Shown one piece after another: positions 23,365 to 64,000 of a stretch of DNA of 64,000 nt; within the stretch, counting starts at the first letter, position 1, and each line of letters opens with the position of its first letter. Source of the stretch: Armatimonadota bacterium (GTDB taxonomy: Bacteria; Armatimonadota; Fimbriimonadia; Fimbriimonadales; Fimbriimonadaceae); NCBI GenBank assembly GCA_018268395.1, contig JAFDWQ010000006.1:62001-126000 (forward strand). The letters run 5' to 3'. The notes under the pieces were generated by a model. That model saw nothing but the letters and a program-made list of their open reading frames with translations. It had not been told where the DNA came from and did not search any database. The position numbers and the translations under genes were made by a program.

Positions 23365-23538
23365 CGAGCACTTGCCATGACTGCCCTGGCGGTCAACCCC
23401 GATTCTTGATTACAAAAATACCGCGCTTGGAGCTCTAGTGTGGACGGGTGGCCCGGTCTGGCAACACGACATGACGAGCCTTCCGAGCGCGACCGTCACG
23501 TTGCAGACCGGGTCAAAGACGTCACCAAGGTGCCGGGC

Positions 23539-24198
23539 TCACGCCGCGACAGAGAGCTGTGGTTCGGCCACGCCGTCTTCCCAGAGCACGACCGGCACGC
23601 TCGCCGGGCTCGTCAGGCCGTCCCGTTTAGCCGTCACCCGGAAAGCGATATAGACGCCCGGCGTGGCCTGGTGGGTGTACTTCGTCTTTTTGGTCGTGTC
23701 GAGGATCGACCAGGCGCCGCCGGAAACGAGCCTGTACTCGACCGCGAACTGCGTCGTCTCGATGTTGCCGTTGCGCTTCCAAGCGAGCTTCACGAGGCCC
23801 TGGCCGTCGGCGTTCGCCACCAGGTTCAGAGGTGTCGTCGGAGGCGTCTTGCTTCCCGGGGTCTTGTGCGGCGGCAGCATGAGCTGGTCGAGGAGGCCGT
23901 CGGGGACGGTCTGGTTCGCCCGGAACGTCTTCGCCCACTTGCTGATCACGGCCTTGCTCGACTTTTTCTGAAGGTTCTTATTGTCCAGGGCCTGATTGGC
24001 GGAGCTCCGCGAGCCGACCCATGTATTGAGGGACGACGTAAAGGACGTCGCCGCGCCACTAATCTCCAAGAGGTTCGCCGGATTCAGCCCGAGCGCTATG
24101 GCATTGGCGGAGCAGACCGTGTTAAAGTTCTGCAGCGCGACGTTCAGTTCCGGATCTGCGACGATCTCTGTGATGTATTTGCTAGTGGGATCGGCCAT
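23539..24198 (-). CDS. Fibronectin type III domain protein
   Basis: The 219-residue protein has a helical N-terminal half (about 1-115, Ala/Asn/Ser-rich, including KKSSKAVISKWAKTF). A fibronectin-III sandwich follows (about 125-215) with the expected tryptophan and tyrosine positions: PLNLVANADGQGLVKLAWKR, TTQFAVEYRL, YTHQATPGVYIAFRVTAK. No signal peptide is present. GGAAG sits before the ATG. Proteins with this build occur near phage or contractile structures and as surface proteins. The local context of repeats and orphan genes gives no further hint. Confidence 0.75.
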   Translation of the reverse strand: MADPTSKYITEIVADPELNVALQNFNTVCSANAIALGLNPANLLEISGAATSFTSSLNTWVGSRSSANQALDNKNLQKKSSKAVISKWAKTFRANQTVPDGLLDQLMLPPHKTPGSKTPPTTPLNLVANADGQGLVKLAWKRNGNIETTQFAVEYRLVSGGAWSILDTTKKTKYTHQATPGVYIAFRVTAKRDGLTSPASVPVVLWEDGVAEPQLSVAA

Positions 24199-24321
24199 GG
24201 GCTTGCTTCCTTGTCGTCGGTCGTGTCGACCTCATACACTCTTTCATGTTGGAAGGCCGCCTTTCGTTCTTTAGGCCTTCGTCCGACGAAAGGGGAAAAA
24301 TCTTTCCTGGCGAGACGGCGT

Positions 24322-24354
24322 CGCTTGACGATCAAGCGGTCCGACCTGTAGCAT
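24322..24354 (+). promoter_or_regulatory. Predicted promoter with overlapping inverted repeat, reading into the 21-bp array
   Basis: TTGACG (24325-24330) and TAGCAT (24349-24354) are 18 bases apart. The perfect inverted repeat CGCTTGA-CGA-TCAAGCG (24322-24338) covers the -35, a typical operator position. Downstream lie an 8-codon frame at 24364 and then the tandem array at 24443. Confidence 0.45.
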
Positions 24355-24442
24355 GCCGACAGTCATGAAGACGGTTCGATTTGCACTTTGATGACATGTC
24401 TACGCCGCAAATGTGCACAAAACGCGTGTCCCCTCCGTCACT

Positions 24443-24610
24443 TTCATGGTGTAAACCCTCGTGTTCATGGCGTAAACCTTCGTGTTCATGGCGCAAACCC
24501 TCGTGTTCATGGCGTAAACCCTCGTGTTCACGGCGTGAATCCGAGGATTCATGGCGTGAAGCATCGGATATTTGGCGTGAATCCGAGGGTTCATGACGTG
24601 AAGCATTGGT
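24443..24610. repeat. Tandem array of eight 21-bp units
   Basis: Eight head-to-tail units of exactly 21 bases run from 24443 to 24610. Units 1-4 are near-identical (TTCATGGCGTAAACCCTCGT plus G). Units 5-8 are diverged and alternate in type: 5 and 7 contain GTGAATCCGAGG; 6 and 8 contain GTGAAGCAT(C/T)GG. There is thus a 42-base higher-order period in the second half. Because 21 is a multiple of three, open frames reading seven-residue repeats exist on both strands (for example SWRKPSC on plus, HAMNTRV-type on minus). No ribosome site makes any of them convincing. There are no unique spacers, so it is not a CRISPR array. Confidence 0.9.
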
Positions 24611-24795
24611 TTTACGGCCCGACGTCGACGGGAGCGCTGCCTCACGGAAGTCCGGCCCAAGCGCCGGCGTGCCGAGGCGGCCCGTCCCGTATCCGACCCG
24701 GTGTCACCCCAAGACCGGACCAGGAACGCCAAGATCAGACTCCCGGTCGGGCCCGCTGGCCGAGGCCCGGCGACCGTCGACCGGTCCTTTCCGGC
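24611..24795. other. Gap between the tandem array and the retropepsin-like gene
   Basis: GC-rich sequence with several short palindromic words but no hairpin followed by a T run, and no supported gene. Confidence 0.4.
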
Positions 24796-61579: not shown

Positions 61580-64000
61580 CTAACTACACCCGCTCGTCTC
61601 GCCGCACGTGTTGCACTTCAGGCAGACCCCGTTCCGCACGAGCGTATAGGAGCCGCAATTGGTGCAGGGATCGGCTTCGTAGCCCTTGAGACGGGCGACG
61701 CGGACGGCCTCGGTGCGGGTTTCGGGTTTCGGGTTTCGGGTCTCGGTGCCGGAACGGACTGTGGCCACGCCGACAGGTGCCGGGGTTTCGACATAGGCGT
61801 AGTTGCCGTGACCGTTCCGTTCGTTGCCTGCGTGCGACGCGCGCTCCCCGACACCCGGGCCCCGGACCCCGTACCCCGAACTCGAGTGGTCTTCCCGCGT
61901 GACGCCGGGGGCGATGTCGTCGATCGGGCCTTGGTCTTCCTCCTCTTCGAAGTCGAGGCCGGGCTGATTGGGGCCGCCGATCGCGTCGTGGCGGAGGTCT
62001 TCGGGCTTGACCTGGACGAGGTCGTAGCGGCCGAGATAGGTCATGGCGAGCTCGCGGAAGATGTAGTCGATGACCGAGGTCGACATCTTGATGTTGTCGT
62101 GGCCCATGACGACGCCGTTCGGCTCGAAGCGGCTGAAGGTGAACGCCTCGACGAACTCCTCGAGGGGGACGCCGTGCTGCAGGCCGAGCGAGATGGCGAT
62201 GGCGAAGCAGTTCATCAGCGAGCGGAACGCGGCGCCTTCGCGGTGCATGTCGACGAAGATCTCGCCGAGGGTGCCGTCCTCGTACTCGCCCGTGCGCAGG
62301 TAGACCTTGTGGCCGCCGACGAGCGCCTTTTGGGTGTAGCCCTTGCGTCGCTGGGGCATGAGGCGTCGGCGGGCGATGTAGCGGTAAACGAGCTTTTGGG
62401 AGGCGGCGAGGATTTCTGCGTGTTCGGAAGTCCGGTAGTCCGGTCGTTCGGATCCGGAACCGGACCACTCCGAACCACCCGAACCGACCGGACGCTCTTC
62501 CTCGAAAGAGGCCTCCAAAATCGCCGCGGCGGCGTCGTCGGTCGAGGCGTTGAGGGGCTGGCTGAGCTTGCTGCCGTCGCGGTAGAGGGCGTTGGCCTTG
62601 AGGCCGAGCTTCCACGAGAGCATGTAGGCGTCGTTGACGTCCTCGACGGTGGCGTTGGCGGGAAGGTTGATCGTCTTGCTGATCGCGCCGCTGAGGAACG
62701 GCTGGGCGGCGGCCATCATGCGGATGTGGCCCTCGGCGCTGATGAAGCGCTGCCCGCGTTTGCCGCACTTGTTGGCGCAGTCGAAGACCGGATAGTGGGC
62801 GGGTTCGAGGTGGGGCGCGCCTTCGATCGTCATGGTGCCGCAGACGTAGTCGTTGGCGGCTTCGACCTCGGCCTTGGTAAAGCCGAGCGCGGCGAGCATG
62901 TCGAACGACCAGTCGTCGAGCTGGGCCGAGCTGAAACCGAGCTTCTGTTTGCAGAACTCCTCGCCAAAGGTGTACTTATTGAAGGCGAAGCGGAGTTCGA
63001 AGGCGTCCTTGAGGCCCGCTTCGAGCTTGGCGAGGGCGGCGTCGTCGAAGCCCTTCTCACGGAGCGTGTCGTGGTTGACGGCGGGCGAGCCTTTGAGGGT
63101 GCCGTGTCCGACGGTGTAGGCGACGATGTCCTCGATCTGTTCCTGGCTGTAGCCGAGCCGGCGGAGGGCGACGGGCACGGACTGGTTGACGATTTTGAAG
63201 TAACCGCCGCCCGCGAGCTTTTTGAACTTCACGATGGCAAAGTCGGGCTCGATGCCGGTCGTGTCGCAGTCCATGATCAGGCCGATCGTGCCGGTGGGGG
63301 CGAGGACGGTGACCTGGGCGTTGCGGAAGCCGTTCTGCTCTCCGAAGGCGAGGGCGTCGTCCCATGCCCTTCGGGCCGAGTCCAAGAGGTCCTGCGGGCA
63401 GTATCTGGCGTCGATCGGGACAGGTCTGACGCCCAGACCTTCATACTCCGATGCAGGCGCAGAATGGGCCGCTCGGCGGTGGTTGCGGACGACCCGGAGC
63501 ATGTGCCCGCGGTTCTTGTCGTACTTCGGGAACGGGCCGAGCTTGCCCGCCATTTCCGCGCTGGTCGCATAGCTTTCGCCGCCGAGGATGCTGGTGAGGG
63601 CGCCTGCGATCGCGAAGCCTTCGGGCGAATCGTAAGGGATCGCCATCTGCATGAGCAGGGCGCCGAGGTTGGCGTATCCGAGGCCGAGGGTGCGGAAGTC
63701 GTAGCTGAGCTGGGCGATTTCTTTGCTCGGGAACTGGGCCATGAGCACGCTGATCTCGAGCACGACCGTCCAGAGCCGGATGGCGTGGCGATAGGCTTCG
63801 ATGTCGAAGCGGCCGGTCTTCGGGTCGTAGAGCGTGCAGAGGTTGATGCTGGCGAGGTTGCACGCGGTGTCGTCGAGGAACATGTACTCGCTGCACGGGT
63901 TGGACGCGTTGATGCGGCCGTCCTCGGGGCAGGTGTGCCAGTCGTTGATGGTGGTGTCGTATTGGGTGCCGGGGTCGGCGCTGTGCCAGGCGCTCGTGCA
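61580..64000 (-). CDS. nrdJ: Vitamin B12-dependent (class II) ribonucleotide reductase, 5' end cut by window edge
   Basis: The visible 806 residues start at the window edge. [11 protein letters not shown] near 63890 holds the catalytic N-x-C-x-E triad. [20 protein letters not shown] is the phosphate-binding region, and [15 protein letters not shown] and [20 protein letters not shown] follow. A TSCPD-type domain ([40 protein letters not shown]) and a C-terminal zinc/redox tail ([29 protein letters not shown]) complete it. It makes deoxynucleotides with adenosylcobalamin and needs no oxygen. Two linker regions are of low complexity: [16 protein letters not shown] (about 62440) and [15 protein letters not shown] (about 61725). 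Confidence 0.95.

Follow-up and report, generated by a model that had tools for sequence, protein, structure and literature searches.

The window analysed here, a stretch of 64,000 nucleotides from the genome of an Armatimonadota bacterium, contains a tandem array of 21-bp units. The array lies 245 bp upstream of a minus-strand gene for a 219-aa protein. The features of the region are the following:

23539-24198, minus strand: 219-aa gene of the array-linked family (N-terminal helices, C-terminal Fn3), with 12 copies in this genome
24206-24212, minus strand: AAGGAAG, probable ribosome binding site of the 219-aa gene, preceding the ATG at 24198 (from the sequence)
24269-24275, minus strand: CCTAAAG motif at -77 of the 219-aa gene, between array and start, recurring near -75 in other family members
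24322-24338, no strand: perfect inverted repeat CGCTTGA-CGA-TCAAGCG in the interval between array and gene (sequence only)
24423-24634, no strand: 21-bp tandem array including degenerate edges, core 24443-24610 (TRF, unit listing, autocorrelation extent)
24443-24526, plus strand: A block, four units TTCATGGCGTAAACCCTCGTG (sequence, unit listing)
24527-24610, plus strand: B-C-B-C block with 42-bp period (TRF, unit listing, folding)

The window array and its surroundings

According to TRF (score 160) and the unit listing, the array core consists of eight contiguous 21-bp units in the order A-A-A-A-B-C-B-C, far more than chance would produce. A preliminary description had reported eight exact 21-base units. 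This holds for their contiguity and length, but not for their sequences, which are not identical; unit 7 starts with TATTTGG, a sign of degeneracy towards that end. The described division into near-identical units 1-4 and units 5-8 that alternate between two variants agrees with a second TRF period of 42 bases (score 148). The A units read TTCATGG[T/C]G[T/C]AAACC[C/T]TCGTG. Units 5 and 7 end in TCCGAGG[A/G] and units 6 and 8 in GCAT[C/T]GG[A/T] (B units finish in ...TCCGAGGA/G, C units in ...GCATCGGA). The two-part structure corresponds to complementary spacers in units 1-4 and units 5-8. Because CGAGGGT in the B-C-B-C block is complementary to ACCCTCG in the A block, the two halves can pair. 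As RNA, the array folds units 1-4 against units 5-8 (z -2.06); the DNA fold has a z of -2.27.

Expression of the array had been attributed to a possible plus-strand promoter, TTGACG-N18-TAGCAT, accompanied by the inverted repeat. Both elements are found where they were described, the former at 24325-24354. However, the putative promoter is a bare consensus match (9/12, with 0.1 expected in shuffles) inside the 5' region of the minus-strand gene. Moreover, the arrays keep their place with respect to the family gene, and those in Bacteroidota are upstream of a promoter-like TTTG/TAnnTTG pair; both observations argue against expression from this site. The lack of a ribosome site is confirmed for the array, whereas the opposite strand has AAGGAAG and the array-linked gene; the link to the adjacent 219-aa gene family had been overlooked.

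Next to the array, genes for the Fn3-domain protein and for a PDZ aspartyl protease are found, and no Rep or ParB-type DNA-binding protein was recognised there. The syntenic protease-livK locus of three congeners contains neither the array nor the 219-aa gene.

Linkage of period-21 arrays to a gene family

The 219-aa protein did not match any Pfam or NCBIfam family. Its AlphaFold model (mean pLDDT 91.7) has helices at 15-31, 40-94 (one long helix) and 100-105, followed by a C-terminal Fn3 fold. Fn3 is matched by 11 of 50 family members, with a best E of 1.5e-5. No DNA-binding fold was recognised in the family protein, with its helical N-terminus and Fn3 domain, and the best matches listed were all Fn3. 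The pI ranges from 4.4 to 11.6 in the family. About half of the related genomes that were searched contain relatives. A single-protein search of viral contigs and plasmids returned no relatives, and in Verrucomicrobia, Planctomycetes, Acidobacteria and the other genomes reached, only Fn3-domain matches in large proteins were found.

The search for other arrays in the genome that the preliminary description had recommended proved worthwhile, as it uncovered both further arrays and the gene-family link. An array was called when a period of 21 was present with at least 65% identity over 63 nt within 500 bp upstream of a gene, and 50 family genes from the window genome and its relatives were evaluated. 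Arrays with periods of 21, 42, 63 or 84 are present upstream of 26 of these 50 genes and downstream of none, and none of 250 shuffled upstream regions of family genes gave a comparable period-21 signal. Upstream of other ORFs, such arrays were called in 3 of 619 cases, two of which represent the same C3 array beside a family paralog. With TRF as an independent detector, arrays were found upstream of 28 of 55 and downstream of 0 of 54 family genes; the upstream periods were 21 (25 genes), 42 (15), 63 (5) and 84 (1), with only two others. When no threshold was applied, the strongest of 102 lags fell on a multiple of 21 for 41 of the 55 upstream regions, versus 8 of 54 downstream regions. Since the family genes share ancestry, the p-values overstate independence. 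Roughly half of the family stays below the array threshold, with a weak lag-21 signal in several cases. Of the 16 genomes that carry family genes, 12 have an array beside at least one of them. In about 860 kb, a crude gene caller, which overlooked the C3 stretch, delimited 178 intergenic stretches of at least 200 bp; three of these were called with period-21 arrays, namely the window array, an array near crcB, and a congener array that is partly overlapped by a called ORF.

The period of all 30 family arrays is 21 or a multiple, with 5-17 units, and the arrays are mostly placed 80-250 bp before the family start codon. Their sequences, in contrast to period and position, are nearly free and differ between paralogs. 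Even gene pairs that are 84% and 72% identical have unrelated arrays. Array and protein similarity are weakly correlated (Mantel r 0.19, p 0.005), and with a correlation of this size we reject co-evolution of the array sequence with the protein. Local-alignment z-scores between arrays are inflated by tandem repetition, and no array homology is claimed from them. Most puzzling of all is the turnover of array sequence between paralogs that are nearly identical, which speaks against a simple mode in which the encoded protein recognises a specific sequence.

In the window genome, period-21 arrays are upstream of 6 of the 12 family copies and end about 100-245 bp before the start. The six differ in sequence (TTCATGGCG..., GGGCCACTTCATGGCGCAAAA..., GGGAAAGAAGAAAATTCCCCC..., TTCCGACCCGTGTCTTGCTTC..., CCGTTCCCGAACGGTCCGG... 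and CGCCGACATCGGCGGACGATC...); the word TTCATGGCG is common to the arrays of the two closest paralogs, which are 69% identical, and is absent from the other four. One 21/42-bp array of different sequence, C3:408834-409074, came from a 400-kb sample of the genome and precedes a paralog of the 219-aa gene by 267 bp. Altogether, the genome has seven differing arrays or families. The window repeat is also found at C1:985617-985719 and C5:283804-283984, where the match covers the array only and not the flanks; the C5 array includes a 56-base run of N, which makes its length provisional. At C1:107262 (L175 7262-7499), a 42-bp array ACCAGGCCTGGAAAACTGTTC/CCGGCATGAGGTGAGAAGCTC follows crcB and runs into a masked stretch, so that parts of this array, too, are concealed by N. 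None of these three loci has a family gene nearby, and an array can thus exist alone. Of the 291 genomes of the phylum, only the window genome itself has the core pair pattern of the window array.

The window genome also has a separate dispersed repeat family, GGTGGCCCGGTCTGGCAAC...GCAGACCGGGTC, with copies at 23445-23530 of the window, at about 5400-5700 of L016, at about 10100 of L188 and at about 8200 of L175. It directly follows two family genes on their 3' side and also occurs close to one of the orphan arrays.

The module of array and gene recurs across paralogs and in two phyla. The evidence from Bacteroidota is a single Odoribacteraceae MAG (the genome of L145), which has five homologs and period-21 arrays upstream of four of them. 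Its proteins align with the family profile over their full length (195 columns, hhalign probability 98%, E 1.5e-13). The choice of this MAG was not blind, because it was reached via its TTCAYGNCGTGAA array. The arrays beside its family genes have sequences other than TTCAYGNCGTGAA, and all differ from each other (TTCACGGGTGATCGGGGAGCT/TTAATGGATGATCGGGGGACG; GAAAGTGACGTCACTTTAAGC; a 42-bp unit; GGCGGGTAGGCAGATTCCCGG). One weak family homolog with no clear array was found in a Nitrosomonadales genome. No description of the array-gene link was found in the openly searchable literature.

The array as a DNA element

The variation between array units has no codon-phase bias (combined p 0.96), and the distances from array to start fall in all three codon phases, so that the 21 bp should not be equated with seven codons. 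A coding heptapeptide repeat is rejected by the codon-phase test, and L231, L232 and L238 also have in-frame stops between array and gene. The array is non-coding, as had been presumed in the preliminary description.

In the Bacteroidota copies, the region between array and start can be read with the promoter consensus of this phylum (TTTG/TAnnTTG; PMC7366714). L291 and L306 have a consensus match to a promoter-like TTTG-N18/19-TA..TTG pair at -131/-130. A -7-like element is present at -109 in L291, L301 and L306, with the TTTG box at the right distance in two of them (L291 and L306), and the arrays end at -163, -224 and -250. The promoter and leader regions of the three are 75-78% identical, whereas the L306 array is unrelated to the other two. 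In the window genome, most array-bearing copies have CCTAAAG-like elements between array and start, compared to about 1% in the control. With the starts as predicted, the family arrays are thus upstream of promoter-like elements in the Bacteroidota copies and of CCTAAAG in the window genome. Since these elements fall between array and start, the array is most likely outside the message and acts as DNA.

Twenty-one bp correspond to two turns of B-DNA. Dyad symmetry (p<0.05 against column-permuted controls) is present in 10 of the 30 arrays. In folding, the arrays have a mean z of -1.44 for the sense and -1.54 for the antisense strand relative to such controls, with z below -1.64 for 14/30 arrays in sense and 10/30 in antisense. 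The sense strand has the lower value in 15 of 30 arrays, which amounts to no strand preference. Many arrays are self-complementary on both strands.

Proposed role, rivals and related systems

The module may be defined as a strict 21-bp-period array together with a gene for a protein of about 215 aa that has a helical N-terminus and an Fn3 C-terminus. We are slightly inclined to believe that it is a module of several phyla, in which each helical-Fn3 gene has its own 21-bp-periodic array, with the period selected and the sequence free and rewritten at each locus. As for the mechanism, the array may be a helically phased cis-acting DNA platform upstream of the adjacent gene's predicted promoter, a proposal to which we give an even chance. 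As double-stranded DNA upstream of the promoter, it would present a row of equivalent sites two helical turns apart. A binder would line up on one face of the DNA and could control the adjacent gene, or be organised for it. Slippage in whole units would gain or lose copies, so that the phase would be kept while the sequence drifts and is rewritten. The protein-binding array, which had been put forward earlier as an economical reading, is accepted here, and the binding is what we infer.

Two serious rivals have to be weighed against the DNA platform. The array could be transcribed, as a leader, separately or in antisense, and form a row of hairpins as a structured RNA, in which case folding and not sequence would be kept. 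The better folding compared to column-permuted versions, the folding of units 1-4 against 5-8 in the window array, and units of L301 that change in a compensating way, from GTGACGTCAC to GTTACGTAAC, are all in favour of this idea. However, DNA dyads would give the same signal, a strand preference is absent, many arrays have no self-complementarity, ten array loci had no match in Rfam, and where promoter-like elements are readable, the arrays are upstream of them. On balance, a structured RNA seems unlikely.

The second serious rival is a contingency locus, in which cells differ in how many 21-bp units they have, and this number tunes or switches the expression of each family copy. Whole-turn spacing would be kept and sequence would be irrelevant, which would explain the constant period with free sequence. 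The multigene family, the 5-17 units per array in front of the start, the block duplications (superperiods of 42, 63 and 84) and the rapid turnover also fit. The hmw repeats of Haemophilus, short units of 7 bp, offer a comparison. Like the hmw1A-type contingency loci, which carry tandem repeats in the promoter region (PMC8262952), the arrays precede genes that belong to a multicopy family. However, the hmw1A-type loci share one repeat sequence at homologous loci, whereas the 21-bp units here differ from locus to locus and across phyla. The divergence of units within arrays suggests that many arrays are not slipping now. We regard a contingency locus as quite unlikely on its own, but a contingency switch would be compatible with the helically phased platform, as its purpose.

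Another possibility is that the array serves as a partition-like site, or as one that organises the nucleoid, and is bound by the protein encoded beside it or by a partner of that protein; the orphans would then be additional sites with equal specificity. The iterons of plasmid replication and partition are direct repeats about two helical turns apart, next to a gene and with quasi-palindromic units, and the arrays here resemble them in all these respects. They differ from iterons in that no Rep/Par gene and no DNA-binding fold is recognised, and in the many paralogous loci per genome. The orphan arrays with the window sequence at two other places and the weak correlation of array and protein similarity speak for own-array binding; the wide range of pI and the unrelated arrays of nearly identical proteins speak against it and make it improbable.

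Neutral minisatellite slippage without function would be consistent with the rapid turnover and the orphan copies, but it would give varied periods and places, and not multiples of 21, with two exceptions, and none downstream. The preliminary description had named slippage without conservation as the alternative to a functional array. Sequence is indeed unconserved, but conservation is seen both in the period of 21 bp and in the location in front of the family genes, and purely neutral slippage appears very improbable. Finally, an operator array of AAA_14/DUF4143 ATPases is hardly tenable: its core palindrome TTCAYGNCGTGAA straddles start codons of such genes in other phyla (pattern search, neighbour genes), but this core is missing from most of the other family arrays, and a search of the window genome (99.8% complete) gave no DUF4143 match and no AAA_14 match above the cut-off.

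Subirana and Messeguer have described non-coding bacterial satellites of 20-23 nt with constant size and variable sequence in many bacteria, with no gene association or function reported (PMC8161180; PMC6749651). The window array has the features of this known but unexplained kind: constant head-to-tail units in at least 4 copies (eight of 21 bp), absence of coding, and a unit length of 21 (related 40-41/42). Like the satellite hosts, the window genome has several families that share a unit length but differ in sequence, and the sequences are confined to the species. Unlike the satellites as reported, the arrays here are tied to one gene family, at a fixed place and in two phyla, and as far as the openly searchable literature shows, this cross-phylum link is new. 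As a statistically strong association, it makes the satellite enigma (PMC8161180) testable: if the module of several phyla is real, the satellites gain their first gene partner, and hence a testable function. If selection keeps the period and not the sequence, this would point to DNA geometry, or repetition as such, being what is recognised, an unusual situation among bacterial regulatory elements.

Several minor observations were made along the way. Pairs of the form TTCAYGNCGTGAAT-GATAATC-ATTCAYGNCGTGAAT straddle or adjoin the starts of AAA_14/DUF4143-type ATPases in several phyla (L057, L062, L087, L089, L096, L105, L114 and others), and are likely an autoregulatory operator, with the ATPases identified by eye from the translations. 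Bacteroidales RUG10906 has more than 20 dispersed intergenic TTTTCANNNNNNTGAAAAT arrays of about 20-21 bp (L047, L048, L050, L051, L053 and about 20 more). Their ends are often inverted (AAACTATT...AATAGTTT), and no family gene is nearby. Kinship of the family arrays with the dispersed TTTTCANNNNNNTGAAAA arrays of this genome was rejected; the latter are likely convergent, because there is no family gene in those pieces. A long 21-bp array, TTCACGTCGTGAAGGATACGC, reaches the contig end in L060 (5071-5566, Nitrosomonadales). In the window itself, the heptamer CGGGTTT is repeated 4.4 times at 61716-61746.
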